DNA from: Candidatus Omnitrophota bacterium
Lineage (GTDB): Bacteria; Omnitrophota; Gorgyraeia; Duberdicusellales; 4484-171
Direction: 5' to 3'
NCBI GenBank assembly: GCA_021735405.1
Contig: JAIPHC010000005.1
Span: 1-32,156, forward strand
Length of the DNA stretch: 32,156 bases
Shown piece by piece: positions 7,088 through 24,068 of the stretch; within the stretch, counting starts at the first letter, position 1, and every line of letters begins with the position of its first letter. Under the pieces are notes generated by a model. The model made no database searches. It was not told where the DNA came from and worked only from the letters and a program-made list of their open reading frames with translations. The translations under genes and the position numbers were made by a program.

Positions 7088-8080
7088 CTATATACCAACA
7101 TCTTTATTCTTAGCTCCCGCAACAAGATATAAAGCAGCCATCCGGACCGCAATCCCGTTGGTTACTTGTTCTAAAATAACCGAGTTCGGCCCGTCTGCCA
7201 CTTGAGAGGATATCTCGACTCCTCTATTAATCGGGCCCGGGTGCATAACCAATATATCTTTATTGGTTTTTTCGATTCTTTTTTGAGTAATTCCGTATTT
7301 TTTAAAATATTCTAATTTTTGCGGAAAAGCTGAAAGTTGGTCTCTTTCGAATTGCATCCTCAAAACATTTACCGCATCAGATTGGGACAAAGCCTCGTCT
7401 ATATCCGGAATTATCGAAACGCCCATTTTTTCGACTTCCGGAGGGATAAGTATCTCCGGAGCGCAAACTATTACTTTTGCTCCCAGCTTAGTCAATCCCC
7501 AAATATTTGAACGCGCTACCCGTGAATGCGCGATATCTCCCACAATGGTTACGGTTAATCCTTTAATTTTTCCTTTCTTTTCTCCTAAAGTAAAGATATC
7601 CAGCAAGGCTTGGGTCGGATGCTCATGCCATCCGTCTCCGGCATTAACCACGCTTATATTTACGTGGCGGGAAAGCATGGCCGCTGCTCCGGCCGCATTA
7701 TGCCTGACTACAATTATATCTGCTTTTAAAGCTTCGATATTTCTGCCGGTATCGTTAAGAGTTTCGCTTTTACGTACGCTTGAATATTCAGTTGCTATAT
7801 TTATTACGTCTGCCGAAAGCCTTTTAGCCGCTACCTCAAAAGAAACTCTGGTTCTTGTCGAAGGTTCATAAAATAAATTAACTATGGTTTTACCGCGTAA
7901 AGCCGGGACTTTTTTAATCTGGCGGGTAGTAACCTCTTTAAAAGAGGCGGCTGTTTGAAGTAAATTTTCTATCTCTTTTTTACTTAGCTCCCTTAAGCCC
8001 AATAAATCTTTCTTGCGCCATTTTTTAAAATCTTTATTTTTTTTAGCTGCTTTTTCCATAAATGATCTAAGCGGGTTCAC
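7088..8080 (-). CDS. pyrB: Aspartate carbamoyltransferase catalytic subunit
   Basis: FYEPSTRTRVSFEVAAKRL, HPTQALLDIFT, VMHPGPINRGVEI. Confidence 0.97.
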   Translation of the reverse strand: MNPLRSFMEKAAKKNKDFKKWRKKDLLGLRELSKKEIENLLQTAASFKEVTTRQIKKVPALRGKTIVNLFYEPSTRTRVSFEVAAKRLSADVINIATEYSSVRKSETLNDTGRNIEALKADIIVVRHNAAGAAAMLSRHVNISVVNAGDGWHEHPTQALLDIFTLGEKKGKIKGLTVTIVGDIAHSRVARSNIWGLTKLGAKVIVCAPEILIPPEVEKMGVSIIPDIDEALSQSDAVNVLRMQFERDQLSAFPQKLEYFKKYGITQKRIEKTNKDILVMHPGPINRGVEISSQVADGPNSVILEQVTNGIAVRMAALYLVAGAKNKDVGI

Positions 8081-8622
8081 TTCCCCCGCAATACCACCTT
8101 ATCTTCTGAGTCTATCTCCTTTAACTTCACCTCAACAATCTGGCCTCTGGCAGTAGGAATATTTTTGCCGGCAAAATCAGCCCTAAAGGGGAGCTCCCTG
8201 TGGCCCCTGTCAATTAAGGTTAAAAACCGAATTTTTTCCGGCCGGCCAAAATCCATAATTTGATCTAAAGCGGCTCTTACGGTCCTGCCGGTAAACAAAA
8301 CATCGTCGATTAAAATAATTACTTTTTGATAAATATCAAAACCGATTATAGTCTTTTTAACTATCGGTTTTGGCCCGATAACGGTTAAATCATCCCTATA
8401 AAAGGTAATGTCTAATTCCCCCAGAGGCAGGTCGGCTCGGCTTATATCCTTAATTATCTTTTTTATTCTTTTAGCTAAAGGAACTCCTCGGGTTTGGATC
8501 CCCACTAAAGCTAACTTGGCTGGATCGGGATTTTTTTCTAAAATCTGGTGAGAAAGCCTTTTTAAGCTTCTTTCGATATCTTGGGAAGTTAAAATTATCT
8601 TTTCTTGTTTGTCTTTTTTCAT
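8077..8622 (-). CDS. pyrR: PyrR (pyrimidine operon regulator / uracil phosphoribosyltransferase family)
   Basis: LVGIQTRGVPLAKRI, VILIDDVLFTGRTVRAALDQIMDFGRP, LIDRGHRELPFRADFAGKNIPT; overlaps pyrB start by 4 nt. Confidence 0.96.
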   Translation of the reverse strand: MKKDKQEKIILTSQDIERSLKRLSHQILEKNPDPAKLALVGIQTRGVPLAKRIKKIIKDISRADLPLGELDITFYRDDLTVIGPKPIVKKTIIGFDIYQKVIILIDDVLFTGRTVRAALDQIMDFGRPEKIRFLTLIDRGHRELPFRADFAGKNIPTARGQIVEVKLKEIDSEDKVVLRGK

Positions 8623-8633
8623 AATAATCCTTC

Positions 8634-8651
8634 CTGGCCTCGCCGAACCAG
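8634..8651 (-). promoter_or_regulatory. Candidate PyrR-binding hairpin in the pyrR leader, overlapping the Shine-Dalgarno
   Basis: Minus strand CTGGTTCGGCGAGGCCAG: CTGG/CCAG stem with TTCGGCGAGG loop; resembles PyrR-binding consensus ARUCCNGNGAGGYU; SD-like AGGAAGG (8630-8636) overlaps the 3' arm; ATG at 8622. Confidence 0.45.
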
Positions 8652-8733
8652 TTTAAAGGTTATTTAATACTATTATCTCTGCCCCTGCCTGTCAAGGATA
8701 AAAAGTTAAACTCTCATTAAATCTAACTACTTT

Positions 8734-8798
8734 GTCATCCTGAGGATCTCTGCAACGGTTTTTAGATTCTTCGGTCGCTGCCGCCCCCTCAGAATGAC
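8734..8798. repeat. REP-like palindromic element, copy A
   Basis: GTCATCCTGAGG ... AGATTCTTCGG ... CCTCAGAATGAC; ends are near-perfect inverted repeats and match copy B at 21974-22133. Confidence 0.7.
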
Positions 8799-9457
8799 GC
8801 TGAGGACAAAACAAGGGTAAATTCTCCCTTTGGCTTTTTTTCCCTGAAATGCTCAACTGCTTCTTTTAGGCTAGATTCGACAACCTCTTCAAACTTTTTC
8901 GTTAATTCACGGCAAACTGTTATTTTTTTATCTCCTAAAACTCTCTCTAATTCTTCTAAGGTACGTACGATTCGATAGGGCGATTCAAAAAAAACACTGC
9001 TCCCCGGACAATTTGGTATTTGAGCAATAAGCTTGCGCCGGGCTCCTTTTTTCCTCGGCAGATAACCGAAAAAAGTAAATTTATCTGAACTTATGCCGCT
9101 TAACGAAAGCGCTGTGATTAAACTGGATGCCCCCGGCAAAGAAGTGACTTCAACCTTTTCTTCTCTACAGCGGCGGATCAGTTTAAAACCCGGATCCGAG
9201 ATAGTAGGAGTGCCGGCGCTGGAGACTAAAGCTATCTCTTTTCCTTTTTTTAATTCATTTAAAACCCGGGCGGTTTTTTTGTCTTCATTATGGTCATAAA
9301 AACTTATCAATTTATTCTTTATATTAAAATGTTTTAACAAGGTTCCTGTTTTACGCGTGTCTTCGGCTAAAACAAAATCGACCTCTCTTAAAACGCCTAA
9401 GGCCCGCAAGGTTATGTCTTCTCGGTTTCCAATTGGGGTAGCAACTATATACAACAT
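8789..9457 (-). CDS. rsmI: 16S rRNA (cytidine(1402)-2'-O)-methyltransferase
   Basis: MLYIVATPIGNREDITLRAL, AEDTRKTGTLLKHF, SLPGASSLITALSLSGI, FGYLPRKKGARR. Confidence 0.96.
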   Translation of the reverse strand: MLYIVATPIGNREDITLRALGVLREVDFVLAEDTRKTGTLLKHFNIKNKLISFYDHNEDKKTARVLNELKKGKEIALVSSAGTPTISDPGFKLIRRCREEKVEVTSLPGASSLITALSLSGISSDKFTFFGYLPRKKGARRKLIAQIPNCPGSSVFFESPYRIVRTLEELERVLGDKKITVCRELTKKFEEVVESSLKEAVEHFREKKPKGEFTLVLSSASF

Positions 9458-9464
9458 ATTCCTC

Positions 9465-11294
9465 TCATTCGACCGTTACCGATTTTGCTAAGTTGCGCGG
9501 CTGGTCTATCTCTGCTCCTAAATTTTTTGCCACAGAATAAGCAAAAAGCTGAAGGGCGACCGCTACAAGCAGGGGAGAAAATTCTTGGAATTTTAGCTTA
9601 GGAATATAGACCGCCTGGTCGGCAAAAGAGAAAATCTCTTTATCGGCCGGATTGATAACCGCTAAAATTTTTCCTTTGCGGGCTTTTATCTCTTGCAGGT
9701 TGGATGCCATCTTTTCGTGCAGATAATCCATCGGGGCGATGCAAACCACCGCCCGGTATTCATCGATTAAAGCAATCGGGCCGTGCTTCATCTCTCCGGC
9801 CGGATAACCCTCTGCGGGTATATAAGAAATCTCTTTGAGTTTAAGGGCTCCTTCTAAAGCCGAAGGAAAATTAATACCTCTTCCTAAAAAAAGAAAACAG
9901 CCCATTTTTGAAAATTTTTTGGCGATAGACGCAATTTTTTTGCTTTGTTTTAAAATCTTTTTTTGATAAAAAGGTATCCGGGATAACTCTTTCAACATTT
10001 TATTTTTTTCCCGGGCGGTTATAGTATTTTTTATATTGGCTAGATATAAAGAAAATAAATAAAGGCAGAATAGTTGAGTGGTGTAAGCTTTAGTCGAAGC
10101 AACGCCAATTTCCGGGCCGGCAGGAGTATAGATAAAACTATCGCTTTCTCTGACTAAACTTGAACCTAAAACATTACAAATTGACAACACTTTCGCTTTG
10201 CGCTTTTTTGCTTTCTTTAAGGCAGCTAAAGTGTCTGCGGTTTCTCCCGATTGAGAAATAGCGATAAACAAATCCCCTTTATCTACATTAAAATCCCGAT
10301 AGCGGAATTCCGAAGAAGTGTCGACCTCGATTTTAATTTTGGTATGCCGTTCTAAAAAATATTTGGCTACACAAGCCGCATGAAAAGCCGTGCCGCAGGC
10401 AGTAATAAAAATATTTTTTATCCCTTTTAAATAGCTTTTGCTTAATTTTAACTGGTCGAAGCTAATTTGATTCTTCCTGGTATAAATATCTAAGGTATCC
10501 TGCAATACTTTCGGCTGTTGGTGGATTTCTTTAAGCATAAAATGCTTAAATCCTTTCTTTTTAGCTTCTTCGCTTTTTATTTTTATTTTTTCTTTGTTGA
10601 CTTTTATTTTTTTATGCTGAAAATCATAAACTTTTATCTTTTTTGACTCCAAAACGACTATTTGCTTTTCTTTTAAGTAAACCGCTTCCTTGGCTAAAGG
10701 CACTATAGCCGGCAAATCGGAAGCAAGAAAATAACCTTGGGGTGAAACCCCGACAAGAAGCGGGCTCTTGTGACGAACTCCCACCATTTTATCTGGTTCG
10801 GATTCGGAAAAAACCGCTAAAGCAAAAGACCCTTTTAATTCCTTTACTGCGGAAAAAACCGCTTCTTCTACCGACCCCCTGTAATGGCTGGCAATCAGGT
10901 TTACCGCCACTTCCGAATCTGTATTGCTTATAAACTTATAACCTTTTTTTCTTAACTTATTTTTTAAGTTAAGATAGTTTTCGATAATTCCGTTATGAAC
11001 TATATAAAGATTCTTTTTAGAACTTTTATGAGGATGGGCGTTGACTTTAGTCGGCTGGCCGTGGGTAGCCCAACGGGTATGGAGCAAGGCCAAAGAATAT
11101 TTGCTGCCTAAATTAGCCTTAAGGCCGGCTTTCAACTTATGGATCTTTCCCGAGTTTTTCTTGCAGAAAAATTTGCCTGAATCATAAGCTGCGACTCCGC
11201 AAGAATCATAACCTCTGTATTCTAATCTTTGCAACCCGTCAAGAAGGCGGGAGAGTTTAATTTTTTTTCCTTTATATCCAAAAATACCGCACAT
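9465..11294 (-). CDS. glmS: Glutamine--fructose-6-phosphate aminotransferase (isomerizing)
   Basis: MCGIFGY, EYRGYDSCGVA, TRWATHGQPTKVNAHPH, SQSGETADTL, C-terminal DQPRNLAKSVTVE. Confidence 0.98.
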   Translation of the reverse strand: MCGIFGYKGKKIKLSRLLDGLQRLEYRGYDSCGVAAYDSGKFFCKKNSGKIHKLKAGLKANLGSKYSLALLHTRWATHGQPTKVNAHPHKSSKKNLYIVHNGIIENYLNLKNKLRKKGYKFISNTDSEVAVNLIASHYRGSVEEAVFSAVKELKGSFALAVFSESEPDKMVGVRHKSPLLVGVSPQGYFLASDLPAIVPLAKEAVYLKEKQIVVLESKKIKVYDFQHKKIKVNKEKIKIKSEEAKKKGFKHFMLKEIHQQPKVLQDTLDIYTRKNQISFDQLKLSKSYLKGIKNIFITACGTAFHAACVAKYFLERHTKIKIEVDTSSEFRYRDFNVDKGDLFIAISQSGETADTLAALKKAKKRKAKVLSICNVLGSSLVRESDSFIYTPAGPEIGVASTKAYTTQLFCLYLFSLYLANIKNTITAREKNKMLKELSRIPFYQKKILKQSKKIASIAKKFSKMGCFLFLGRGINFPSALEGALKLKEISYIPAEGYPAGEMKHGPIALIDEYRAVVCIAPMDYLHEKMASNLQEIKARKGKILAVINPADKEIFSFADQAVYIPKLKFQEFSPLLVAVALQLFAYSVAKNLGAEIDQPRNLAKSVTVE

Positions 11295-18216: not shown

Positions 18217-19563
18217 TCATAAGTTTTTAATTTCCTGTGTAAGGCTGTTAACGGTTGTTTTTAATTTATCATCTTTAGGCAAAGTTTTTTTAATTTTTTT
18301 ACAAGCGTATAAAATATTGGTATGGTGCTTTCCTCCAAAAAAACTGCCTATTTCAGGAAGCGAGTTTTCTGTCAACTCCCTGGTTAGATACATAGCCACC
18401 TGCCGCGGCAAAACCAAAGTTTTGCTTCTTTTGTTTTTTTTCAGGTCTTCTTTTTCAACGCCGAAAAAATTACTAACCCTAGTTAAAATAACATCAGGAG
18501 TAACCCTTGCGCCAATTTCTTTAACCATGTCTTTTAAAATCCCTTTAGCTAAATCAACAGTTATTGTTTTGTTTTCTATCAACGAGTAAGCTATGATTCT
18601 TACCAAAGCGCCTTCTAATTCACGGATGTTTGATGAAATATTTTCTGCTATAAAACGGATAACTTCCGGTTCTACCTTTACTGCTTCATTTTCTAGTTTT
18701 TTCTCTAATATAGCTACTCTGGTTTCATAGTCCGGAGGCTGGATATCAACCACCAAACCCCAGTTAAACCGGGAAACCAGCCTTTCTTCTAAGTCGGGGA
18801 TTTCTTTAGGCGGCCGGTCCGAAGACACGACAATTTGCTTATGGTGGTCGTATAACACATTAAAGGTATGGAAAAATTCTTCTTGGGATGCCTCTTTGCC
18901 CGATAAAAACTGGATATCATCAATTAATAATATATCTATCTCTCTGTATTTTTTTCTAAACTTATCAGTGTTTCTCTGCCGGATAGAAAGAATCAGGTCA
19001 TTAGCAAAGCTTTCGGAAGAAATATATTTTACTCTTGTTTGGGAATTTAAAGAAAGCAAATGGTTAGAGATGGCTTGCATAAGGTGGGTTTTCCCCAACC
19101 CGACTCCTCCATAAATAAAAATAGGGTTGTATGATTTCCCCGGAGCTTTAGATACAGCCAGAGATGCGGCGTGGGCCATTCGGTTTGAAGAGCCAACCAC
19201 AAAGTTATCAAAAGTAAAACGAGGGTTAAGGCGCAAAGATGTCTGGCTTTTTTCCCCAAAACTTTTGTTGAAGGAGCGGAAAATTTTTGTGGTCTTACTC
19301 TTCAAAATCCCCGGATTGACTCTAAACTCTATGGTTATTTTTTTCCCGGATACTTTCTCAGAAACTTCCTCCAAAGAAGAAAGGTAGTTGCTTTCTACCC
19401 AGCTCTTAAAAAAACTGTCGGGAGCTTCTAAAACTAAACAGTCCCGCGAAGCTTCTTTTAATTGCAGCGGCGATATCCACGTGTCAAAAGAAGTCTCCCC
19501 TAACCGGTCTCTAAGCTTTTTTTTACAATTTTCCCAGATATCTTTTTTCATGCCTGTTTTCAC
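18217..19563 (-). CDS. dnaA: Chromosomal replication initiator protein DnaA
   Basis: NPIFIYGGVGLGKTHLMQAISNHLL, IDILLIDDIQFLSGKEASQEEFFHTFN, SRFNWGLVVDIQPPDYETRVAIL, PRQVAMYLTRELTENSLPEIGSFFGGKHHTNILYACKKI. Confidence 0.98.
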   Translation of the reverse strand: MKTGMKKDIWENCKKKLRDRLGETSFDTWISPLQLKEASRDCLVLEAPDSFFKSWVESNYLSSLEEVSEKVSGKKITIEFRVNPGILKSKTTKIFRSFNKSFGEKSQTSLRLNPRFTFDNFVVGSSNRMAHAASLAVSKAPGKSYNPIFIYGGVGLGKTHLMQAISNHLLSLNSQTRVKYISSESFANDLILSIRQRNTDKFRKKYREIDILLIDDIQFLSGKEASQEEFFHTFNVLYDHHKQIVVSSDRPPKEIPDLEERLVSRFNWGLVVDIQPPDYETRVAILEKKLENEAVKVEPEVIRFIAENISSNIRELEGALVRIIAYSLIENKTITVDLAKGILKDMVKEIGARVTPDVILTRVSNFFGVEKEDLKKNKRSKTLVLPRQVAMYLTRELTENSLPEIGSFFGGKHHTNILYACKKIKKTLPKDDKLKTTVNSLTQEIKNL

Positions 19564-20319: not shown

Positions 20320-21768
20320 ATGGAAAAAAGAACACTTTTTGCATTTCTTCTCTTGATTGGATTTTTCTTGGTTTGGTCGCAGTTTGCCCCAAAGCAATCT
20401 ACGCAACCTGTTGATAATCAAGAAGTTAGCACTGATACTTTAAATAATTCAATTCAAGAACAAACCCGGCCGCAGTCAACAGAGCCGGCTCAAAACCGCT
20501 TACCCTTCGAGGCAGGCGCCTTAGAAGAAACAAGGATCGGGCCTTATTATATTACCTATTCTAGTAAGGGGGGCTACCTTCATTCAATTGCTCTCAACAC
20601 CCCCGCCAACACCCTGCCTTTTCAGGATTTGGGTTTTCAGCCCTCTACCCAAAATATAAACTATAGGGTTAGTATTAATCAAAACACTATTTCTTTTCTC
20701 AGCCAAGATTCTCCTCCCAAAAAGTTTGTTTTTAAGGGTGATATTGTTGAGGTAAAAAACATTGACAACTCCTCTATTTTATTTTTCTCTTTTCCTCTCG
20801 ATTCAGCGAAATCCCACATTAGTAAACGTTATTTTGAATCGTTTTATAAAAAAGGCGATTCTCTTGAACGCAGGCACCCTAAAAAAGTTCAAAATGAGAA
20901 ATATTCAGAAGTAAGATTTGCCGGGGCAAGAAGCCGTTATTATGCGATTAGCCTGCTCCCAGACAGCTATAATCTTGAATTAACAAAAAAACAAAAAAGA
21001 GCTAATTTCTATTTAGATAATCCTCCATCAACAATATCTTTTTATCTTGGCCCGCAGGTGGCCAAAGAGATGGGAAAATATGGCTTAGAAGAGATTGTTT
21101 ATTATGGATTTTGGCATTTTCTCGCGGTTGGAATCATAAAAGTTTTATATTTTTTCTACAGTTTTCTCCATAACTGGGGATTAAGCATAATTTTCCTTTC
21201 TTTTTCCACCTACGCGCTTCTTTTTCCTTTTACCTCCAAAAGCACCCAGGCAATGAAGAAGATGCAGGAAATTCAGCCTTTGATGCAGGAGTTAAAGGAA
21301 AAACATAAAGATAACCCTCAAAAAATGCAGAAAGCAACTGTAGAGTTATATAAAAAGCACAAGGTCAATCCTTTAGGGGGCTGCCTTCCCCTTTTGTTTC
21401 AATTTCCCATAATTATCGCTTTTTATCAAGTGGTTTTTAGATTCAGCCGTCTTCAAGGGGCTTCTTTTCTTTGGATTAAAGATTTGTCGATGCCGGACAG
21501 GCTTTTTCGCCTCCCCTTTGCTATTCCTGTTGTAGGTGTGGAGTATTTTAATCTTTTGCCCATTTTGGTAATGGCTTTAGGCCTTATCCAGCAGCACATA
21601 ACAGCTTCATCCTCAAATCCCCAACAGAAAAAAATAGGATTATTTATGGGGGTTTTTATTGGGATAATTTTTTATAAATTTCCTTCTGCCTTAGTTTTAT
21701 ACTGGTTTGTCCAGAATTTGCTTACCCTTCTTTACCAAGTCCGGCTAAAAAAAGCCCGCACCACCTAA
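20320..21768 (+). CDS. yidC: Membrane protein insertase YidC
   Basis: N-terminal TM plus periplasmic domain; LHNWGLSIIFLSFSTYALLFPFTSKSTQAMKKMQEIQPLMQELKEKHKDNPQKMQKATVELYKKHKVNPLGGCLPLLFQFPIIIAFYQV. Confidence 0.97.
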   Translation: MEKRTLFAFLLLIGFFLVWSQFAPKQSTQPVDNQEVSTDTLNNSIQEQTRPQSTEPAQNRLPFEAGALEETRIGPYYITYSSKGGYLHSIALNTPANTLPFQDLGFQPSTQNINYRVSINQNTISFLSQDSPPKKFVFKGDIVEVKNIDNSSILFFSFPLDSAKSHISKRYFESFYKKGDSLERRHPKKVQNEKYSEVRFAGARSRYYAISLLPDSYNLELTKKQKRANFYLDNPPSTISFYLGPQVAKEMGKYGLEEIVYYGFWHFLAVGIIKVLYFFYSFLHNWGLSIIFLSFSTYALLFPFTSKSTQAMKKMQEIQPLMQELKEKHKDNPQKMQKATVELYKKHKVNPLGGCLPLLFQFPIIIAFYQVVFRFSRLQGASFLWIKDLSMPDRLFRLPFAIPVVGVEYFNLLPILVMALGLIQQHITASSSNPQQKKIGLFMGVFIGIIFYKFPSALVLYWFVQNLLTLLYQVRLKKARTT

Positions 21769-21820
21769 AAAAATCAGCCAAAACCAAAAACGCTTATTTT
21801 TCAAGGCCTTTCTGCGTTTT

Positions 21821-22336
21821 CACGTGGAAACTCTCGTCATTTTAGCAATTGAGAGTTTCCACGTGGATCTTTCAGCTCTCTTTTGTAGCTGGAAAGATAC
21901 ACGTGAAAACCTTATTATTGCCGTTGCGAGCGGAATGAGCGAAGCGAATGAAACGAAGTAGTCTCTCTATGGTGTCATCCTGAGGAGCTCCGGGCTCAAA
22001 AGCTGCGGAAGCGACGAAGGATCTCCCGCTTTAGCGGGACCCCGCTATATAAATATGGGAGCGGGGAATTCGGCTACATCCGCCTCTGGCGGATAAGCCT
22101 CATTGAGATTCTTCGGCTTCGCCTCAGAATGACATTAAGGTTGTTTTGTCTTAAGTGGTTAGCGGGAAAAGTCCACGTGCCAATTTCTTCCGTATAGGCG
22201 ATTAAATTGCCATATGGAAACGCTCCAGCGTTAGCATAAGAGAGTTTTCACGTGCACTTTTCGCATTCACCAATCGAGCGGAAAAGTCCACGTGGAAATT
22301 GTCTGGAGATTAAGCAGAAAAGACAATTTTCACGTG
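21821..22336. promoter_or_regulatory. Cluster of seven parS-like CACGTG palindromes upstream of parAB
   Basis: CACGTG cores at 21821, 21860, 21900, 22174, 22249, 22289, 22331; site 7 is TTTTCACGTGAAAA, close to the Bacillus-type parS core TTTCACGTGAAA. Confidence 0.75.
21974..22133. repeat. REP-like palindromic element, copy B, lying inside the parS-like cluster
   Basis: GTCATCCTGAGG ... GATTCTTCGG ... CCTCAGAATGAC with internal hairpins (CCCGCTttAGCGGG, ATCCGCCtctGGCGGAT); ends match copy A. Confidence 0.75.
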
Positions 22337-22415
22337 AAAACGCTAAAACTCCCTGATTCTATTAACGATTTTCATTTTCGCTGTTCATTTTTAACTAAGG
22401 CAGGGATAAAAATAG

Positions 22416-22452: not shown

Positions 22453-23244
22453 ATGGGTAAAATAATCGGCATTTGCAATCAAAAAGGCGGGACTGGTAAA
22501 ACTACTACCGCTATTAATTTTAGTTCGTTTTTAGGGCTGGCGGGGGAAAAGACGCTTCTTATCGATATGGATCCGCAGGGGAATGCTTCTTCAGGAGTGG
22601 GGGTAGATCCTCAAGATAAGAATTCAGTTTATGAGGTGATTTCCGGAGATCTTTCCGTCGAAGAGGCAATTTATTCTACTGATTGGCCCAATCTCTCGGT
22701 TATGCCTTCGGATATCTCTCTTACCGGGGGAGAAGTTGAGCTGGTATCTTTAGCTAATCGAGAAACTCTTCTGCGCCAAAGCCTTGAGAAAATTAAGGAC
22801 CTTTATTCTTATATAGTTATCGATGCCCCGCCGTCTTTGGGACTGCTTACCGTTAATGTTTTGTCTGCCGCAGACAGCTTACTTATACCGATACAATGCG
22901 AATACTATGCCTTAGAGGGAGTTTCAAAACTAGTCCAGACGGTGGAGCTTATAAAAGAAAGGTTGAATCCCGAACTAGAAATAGAGGGGGTTTTATTGAC
23001 TATGGCTGATTTCCGGACTCGGCTTACTTTGCAGGTGATAGAGGAAGTAAAAGCTTATTTTCAAAGTAAAGCTTTTCGCATTATTGTGCCGAGAAACGTA
23101 AAATTAGCCGAAGCTCCCAGTTTTGGCAAACCAATTCATTTTTATGATTCAAATTGTGTAGGGGCAAAAGCCTATTTAAGTTTAGTTAATGAAGTTAGAG
23201 GACAAGGCAAAGATTCAGTTAATTTTGCAAAACAAAGAGGTTAA
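22453..23244 (+). CDS. parA: Chromosome partitioning ATPase ParA/Soj
   Basis: GICNQKGGTGKTTTAINFSSFLG, LLIDMDPQGNASSGVG, YIVIDAPPSLGLLTVN. Confidence 0.97.
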   Translation: MGKIIGICNQKGGTGKTTTAINFSSFLGLAGEKTLLIDMDPQGNASSGVGVDPQDKNSVYEVISGDLSVEEAIYSTDWPNLSVMPSDISLTGGEVELVSLANRETLLRQSLEKIKDLYSYIVIDAPPSLGLLTVNVLSAADSLLIPIQCEYYALEGVSKLVQTVELIKERLNPELEIEGVLLTMADFRTRLTLQVIEEVKAYFQSKAFRIIVPRNVKLAEAPSFGKPIHFYDSNCVGAKAYLSLVNEVRGQGKDSVNFAKQRG

Positions 23245-23246
23245 TT

Positions 23247-24068
23247 ATGGGTAAAAAAGTATTAGGGAAGGGGCTGGACGCCTTAATTCCCAAAAAGAAG
23301 ATTTCTGGGGGAGACCGATTCGTCTATATTCCGGTAAAAAAGGTTGATCCCAACAAATTTCAGCCGCGTAAGGATATGAACCAGAAGGACTTAGCTGAAC
23401 TAACTCGATCGATTAAAGAAAAAGGGTTTATCCAGCCGATTTTGGCCCGGGATACTAAAGAGGGGAGATATGAAGTTGTAGCCGGCGGAAGAAGGCTGGA
23501 GGCAGCTAAGTTATTGGGCATCAAGGAGATACCCGCAATAATCCGTGATTTGGACAATAAAGATTCTTTTACGGCCGCGATAGTTGAAAATTTACAGCGA
23601 AAAGACCTTAACCCTCTTGAAGAAGCCCAGGCTCTCCAGCGCCTAAAAGACGAATTTAACTTTTCTTTAGACGAAATCGCTCAATTTGTAAGTAAAGATA
23701 AAACCACTGTTTTAAACACAATTCGCCTGCTCAAGCTTCCCGAAAAAGTTAAAAGCGCTTTAGAAAAAAAACTGATTAATCGAAGCCAGGCGAGGACAAT
23801 ACTTTCTTTTAAAAGCAAAAACCAACAGGAAAAGGTATTTTATAAAATTTTAGAAAAAGGCCTTACGGTAAGGGATGTGGAAAAACAAGCGTTCCGGAAA
23901 AACAAGAAGGCAAAGACAGATCCTTTTATCGAAGAAGCCCAGGAGCATCTGCAAAAAAAATTAGGGACGAAAGTAAAAATTACCAGCTCAAAAAACAAAA
24001 GGGGCAAAATCACTCTTCATTATTACAACTTAAATGATTTCGAAAGAATTATTAAACGAATTGGCTAA
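23247..24068 (+). CDS. parB: Chromosome partitioning protein ParB/Spo0J
   Basis: LGKGLDALIP, NKFQPRKD, VVAGGRRLEAAKLLG, AAIVENLQRKDLNPLEEAQALQRL, helix-turn-helix SLDEIAQFVSKDKTTVLNTIRLLKLP. Confidence 0.97.
   Translation: MGKKVLGKGLDALIPKKKISGGDRFVYIPVKKVDPNKFQPRKDMNQKDLAELTRSIKEKGFIQPILARDTKEGRYEVVAGGRRLEAAKLLGIKEIPAIIRDLDNKDSFTAAIVENLQRKDLNPLEEAQALQRLKDEFNFSLDEIAQFVSKDKTTVLNTIRLLKLPEKVKSALEKKLINRSQARTILSFKSKNQQEKVFYKILEKGLTVRDVEKQAFRKNKKAKTDPFIEEAQEHLQKKLGTKVKITSSKNKRGKITLHYYNLNDFERIIKRIG

Follow-up and report, generated by a model that had tools for sequence, protein, structure and literature searches.

A predicted origin-proximal parS array beside parAB in a Candidatus Omnitrophota genome, with lineage-specific sites and inverted-repeat spacers

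The window (the whole stretch of DNA that was analysed, 32,156 nucleotides of contig JAIPHC010000005.1) comes from a Candidatus Omnitrophota MAG of 861,188 bp in 51 contigs, 76.9% complete, and carries an array of CACGTG palindromes in the gap between yidC and parA. As in ParABS systems, the array is adjoined by genes encoding a ParA ATPase and a ParB with three domains (ParB_N, HTH and C-terminal dimerisation), the best solved relative of the latter in a phmmer search being Spo0J (1vz0, 3e-44). The genes dnaA, dnaN, gyrB and gyrA, named from their translations, all lie within about 10 kb of the array, and the window also carries other housekeeping genes named in the same way. These four genes mark an oriC-type neighbourhood and, judged by such gene neighbours, the array is origin-proximal; a single exact DnaA box was found in the window. 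The features flanking the array are as follows.

18217..19563, reverse strand: dnaA, named from its translation
20320..21768, forward strand: yidC (60KD_IMP), bounding the array upstream; its synteny is kept in relatives
22453..23244, forward strand: parA, ParA-type ATPase (AAA_31, 6e-62)
23247..24068, forward strand: parB, with ParB_N, HTH_ParB and ParB_C (Pfam)
23700..23702, forward strand: codon 152 of ParB (Lys), equivalent of Caulobacter R173

An exact motif search of the window returned seven CACGTG cores at 21821, 21860, 21900, 22174, 22249, 22289 and 22331, matching at every position the seven listed within about 516 bp by the initial annotation, and one extra copy at 19478, within dnaA. 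From dinucleotide shuffling of the window, 1.03 CACGTG are expected in 32 kb, and thus about 0.02 in 516 bp, so that the rarity claimed earlier stands but its chance figure of about 0.1 was too cautious. Over the 861,188 bp of the assembly, 7 of the 13 CACGTG fall within the 516-bp array and no second dense cluster was found, a check that had been proposed against the centromere reading and that leaves it intact. The individual sites differ in the state of their arms:

21815..21832, no strand: predicted parS site 1, CGTTTTCACGTGGAAACT, core 21821-21826, both arms kept
21854..21871, no strand: predicted parS site 2, AGTTTC-CACGTG-GATCTT, core 21860, left arm alone
21894..21911, no strand: predicted parS site 3, AAGATA-CACGTG-AAAACC, core 21900, right arm alone
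21915..22150, no strand: dispersed genomic repeat material, dividing the array into two blocks
22168..22185, no strand: parS-like site 4, AAAGTC-CACGTG-CCAATT, core 22174, no good arm
22211..22216, no strand: probable degenerate eighth core, CATATG, proposed from spacing and arms
22243..22260, no strand: predicted parS site 5, AGTTTT-CACGTG-CACTTT, core 22249, left arm alone
22283..22300, no strand: predicted parS site 6, AAAGTC-CACGTG-GAAATT, core 22289, right arm partial
22325..22342, no strand: predicted parS site 7, AATTTT-CACGTG-AAAACG, core 22331, both arms kept

Both arms are retained in two of the seven sites, the outer pair at 21821 and 22331; roughly one good arm is left at 21860, 21900, 22249 and 22289, and none at 22174. 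The T-rich left and A-rich right flanks described initially thus hold for the outer sites, but the inner arms are weaker, and the inner sites, being mostly half-sites, may be weaker loading sites for ParB. The CATATG is in register with the array, 37 bp past the core at 22174 and 38 bp ahead of that at 22249. The repeat, which fills most of 21915-22150, has 17 matches in the genome including the array copy, some of them 99-100% identical over about 117 bp, and the sister genome G004 has related repeat material at the same place.

The named relatives of this bacterium in public genomes are also Candidatus Omnitrophota MAGs, the closest being from isolates with the label Tobar, and a first search of relatives found ParB in 37 of 39 genomes. 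The order dnaA-yidC-gap-parA-parB is common to the relatives wherever contigs are long enough. Sites resembling parS occur in the yidC-parA gap of all 24 genomes of the family, spanning 20 genera, with 1 to 10 sites each (in G023 the gap is deduced to be divided between two contigs). Depending on the genus, these sites are anywhere between about 30 bp and several hundred bp apart, with a constant core and constant arms. All 75 matches to the pattern TTTYCACGTGRAAA in these 24 genomes are inside the gap or at its edge, as compared with 2 matches in total for the reversed control pattern. Most of these assemblies are fragmented MAGs, and the site counts cover the assembled part; however, two family genomes are single contigs, which makes the lack of dispersed sites more than an assembly effect. 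Repeated CACGTG palindromes with conserved arms recur in relatives and are near-absent elsewhere in the genome. The conservation that the initial annotation had called for is found across the family, and its picture of a single compact cluster next to parAB, in place of scattered sites, is valid for the family to the extent that MAGs can show it. The genome G032 (L069), a member of the same class, has twelve TGTTCCACGTGGAACA-type sites at 7340-9488 on the reverse strand and two more further downstream, a total above that of the window, with no hairpin spacers.

The family consensus is CGTTTTCACGTGAAAACG, with T at position -4 and usually G at -5 from the core. The arms read GTTTY-CACGTG-RAAAC, against TGTTY-CACGTG-RAACA in the canonical site, the outer G being shifted 1 bp outward; the GTTTY-type site contrasted here with canonical TGTTTCACGTGAAACA is GTTTTCACGTGAAAAC. 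The G at -4 of each arm that defines canonical 16-bp parS is thus missing from the family sites, and the resemblance to parS noted initially is borne out for the CACGTG core and the presence of arms, but the arms are GTTTY instead of TGTTY and most sites of the window are half-sites. In Caulobacter, ParB residue R173 hydrogen-bonds guanine 1 of parS (PMC7383237). The ParB of the window has Lys152 at the equivalent position, within the motif VSKDKTTVLN, as assigned from the alignment and from the five-residue distance to a conserved Asn.

Among 175 Omnitrophota loci, G stands at -4 in 67 of the 68 scorable genomes that have Arg at this position, whereas T stands there in 45 of the 45 that have a residue other than Arg (Lys, Val, Ile or Phe); the sole combination of Arg with T, in G037, involves a doubtful site 2.9 kb away. 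Of the 175 loci, 62 do not enter these counts, as 47 lack a CACGTG site flanked by parS-like arms and 15 have mixed arms (a group that takes in all three Pro genomes), so the covariation holds where sites are recognisable by a fixed-CACGTG search. Sites were defined by a fixed core and inner arm with -4 left free, so the association is not built in. On a ParA+ParB tree from which the DNA-binding columns were removed, we count about 10 changes of the residue and about 11 of the base. A ParA-only tree had given 4 supported contrasts and the first ParA+ParB tree 5, too few for significance, and 57 more loci were therefore added before the last test; there, all six supported independent contrasts are concordant, with a median sign-test p of 0.031 that, this test of 175 loci being a second look, is to be taken loosely as about 0.03. 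The residue-base covariation supports the reading of the array sites as predicted targets of ParB, and the Lys-type version of the site, with its repeated residue-base switches, is a new part of the finding. The phylum thus offers a natural experiment in which contact residue and parS base apparently changed together some ten times; these repeated joint changes make the Caulobacter contact between R173 and guanine testable in evolution with ready-made pairs.

In G103 (L127, family f25), Pro is found at the R173 position, together with four sites having unequal arms, AGTTTC and ACATTC. G028 (L065) carries, in its yidC-parA gap, two parS-like TGTTTCATATGAAACA palindromes with a CATATG core, 37 and 170 bp before parA, possibly a core switch in a related family. 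Most Arg-type loci of families f4 and f12 of the class (L147, L151 and L209, for example) have no CACGTG site flanked by parS-like arms close to parAB; the parS core may have changed in these families, G038 having TGTTCCCCGTGGAACG.

Compared with known systems, the array shares with the Spo0J/ParB parS of Bacillus, Caulobacter and other bacteria (TGTTTCACGTGAAACA) the CACGTG core, the T-rich and A-rich palindromic arms, the location near dnaA and beside parAB, and a ParB with ParB_N, HTH and C-terminal dimerisation domains; it differs in its GTTTY arms, in Lys in place of Arg at the guanine-1 contact and in its several half-sites. A compact cluster of 22 parS in 3 kb is known upstream of parA in Myxococcus xanthus, with canonical-type TGTTCCACGTGGAACG sites about 4 kb from that gene (PMC3899335, PMC3778016), whereas the array described here sits inside the yidC-parA gap with tighter spacing and inverted-repeat spacers. 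In Pseudomonas aeruginosa, ParB binds half-parS sites with a single good arm (PMC10419367); those are scattered over the genome, unlike the half-sites here, which are packed in a predicted centromere. As compact parS clusters and half-parS binding are already known, the array belongs to a known kind of system. In the switch between ParB and Noc, too, residue 173 and parS position 1 change together; there, Gln goes with adenine and position 6 is changed as well (PMC7383237), whereas here Lys goes with T (Val, Ile or Phe elsewhere in the phylum) and the core is unchanged. An identity of the window system as Noc/NBS was rejected, the core being CACGTG and not of the CCCGGG type and the residue Lys and not Gln; the NCBIfam Noc model scores the window ParB at 203.8 bits, under its 315-bit cut-off.

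The sequences separating the cores have a structure of their own. The source genus is represented by five genomes, and in four of them the cores within blocks are mostly 37-42 bp apart. There, 15 distinct short spacers form inverted repeats that reach past the parS arms, with complementarity at 4.0 of 5 positions, against 2.1 in shuffled pairings, the observed value being reached in none of 5000 shuffles. Two types of spacer mostly alternate, type A with parS-like arms and type B with GATATTC, GATCTTTC or GACTTTTC arms, those of the window being:

21827..21859, no strand: hairpin spacer type A; with its flanking cores, 15-nt arms, 100% complementary, and a 15-nt loop
21866..21899, no strand: hairpin spacer type B, GATCTTTC...GAAAGATA
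22255..22288, no strand: hairpin spacer type B
22295..22330, no strand: hairpin spacer type A, GAAATTGTCT...AGACAATTTT

Folded as single-strand DNA, the stretch 21815-21911 gives z = -7.9, another block of the window -4.4 and a third stretch a weaker -2.4. Thirty base pairs of one type B spacer (22257-22286) are identical in the sister species G004 and inverted relative to parA, and a copy similar to the type B spacer at 21866..21899 is found in opposite orientation in the sister species G003, with the caveat that short-read assembly error at palindromes may produce such inversions. Hairpin spacers were rejected as a general trait, as inverted repeats are not in excess either in 15 spacers taken from sister genera within the family or in the closely packed arrays found in G032 and G066. 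The sopC locus of the F plasmid is an array of palindromic partition sites with a period of about 40 bp, made of near-identical direct repeats; the period is alike, whereas the spacers here differ from one another and are inverted repeats. The hairpin-spaced array is likewise a new part of the finding, and the literature search returned nothing relevant on parS with hairpins.

We propose that the array in the source genus grew as cores about 37-42 bp apart with mutually inverted spacers, probably by template switching or inversion at palindromes, which is the origin that we prefer. The spacers could instead be under functional selection, for example as cruciforms or single-strand hairpins presenting paired cores to ParB or to the replication machinery. 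The occurrence of inverted repeats of different sequence in four of five genus genomes, which suggests that structure and not sequence was kept, speaks for this; however, sister genera have closely spaced sites without inverted repeats, G001 of the same genus has merely two plain sites, and palindrome-templated mutation suffices without selection, so that we regard such selection as rather unlikely. The hairpins might also be small mobile or insertion-like elements that inserted into parS cores, duplicating CACGTG in the process and leaving an array made mostly of insertion debris. Removal of a type B spacer and one core would restore an intact parS, GTTTC-CACGTG-AAAAC, and the arms of type B are unlike those of parS. 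On the other hand, type B spacers differ from each other beyond their arms, one 30-bp type B spacer has no copies outside the array in the five genus genomes (up to 3 mismatches allowed), and the type A spacers, which themselves bear parS arms, are hairpins as well, making an insertion origin improbable. These arrays raise a testable question, namely how centromeric repeats expand.

A reading of the CACGTG elements as regulatory operators or terminator hairpins (parAB autoregulation, yidC terminator) and not as a centromere would suit their position immediately upstream of parA and their capacity to form hairpins, but we dismiss it as highly improbable because site number (1-10) and spacing (about 30 bp to several hundred) vary with fixed core and arms, G032 has its twelve sites between parA and parB, and the arms follow the DNA-contact residue of ParB. 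ParB at the array could nonetheless also repress parAB.

The seven palindromes are most likely the parS handle for chromosome segregation in the source bacterium, and the chromosomal centromere near oriC proposed by the initial annotation gains support from rarity, conservation, synteny and residue-base covariation. In model bacteria, the general mechanism comprises clamp loading, sliding and ParA-driven movement. Here, ParB dimers would load onto the CACGTG-centred sites, close as CTP-bound clamps and slide to neighbouring DNA to form a partition complex, which the adjacent ParA would move; the lineage-specific parS, GTTTYCACGTGRAAAC, would be read by a ParB in which Lys replaces the usual Arg at the contact with the outer guanine. 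We infer ParB binding, clamp loading and the segregation role of the array from sequence comparison. As a whole, the reading as an origin-proximal chromosomal ParABS centromere with lineage-specific sites, a Lys-type ParB and an inverted-spacer array appears very probable to us. It would provide a sequence-level centromere for the uncultured phylum Omnitrophota, for which the open-licence literature searched held no description of parS. Far more tentatively, one could envisage a centromere in which hairpin spacers alternate, cassettes bounded by parS become inverted and reordered from one species to another, and the hairpins aid ParB loading or centromere expansion, combined with several joint switches of ParB and parS within this phylum that hinge on one contact residue; we consider this wider picture doubtful.

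In G002, parA is present on two contigs (C102 and C129; L038 and L122), with 79% and 78% identity to the parA of the window, and the arrays upstream of the two copies differ; this could stem from strain variation within the MAG or from a genuine duplication.
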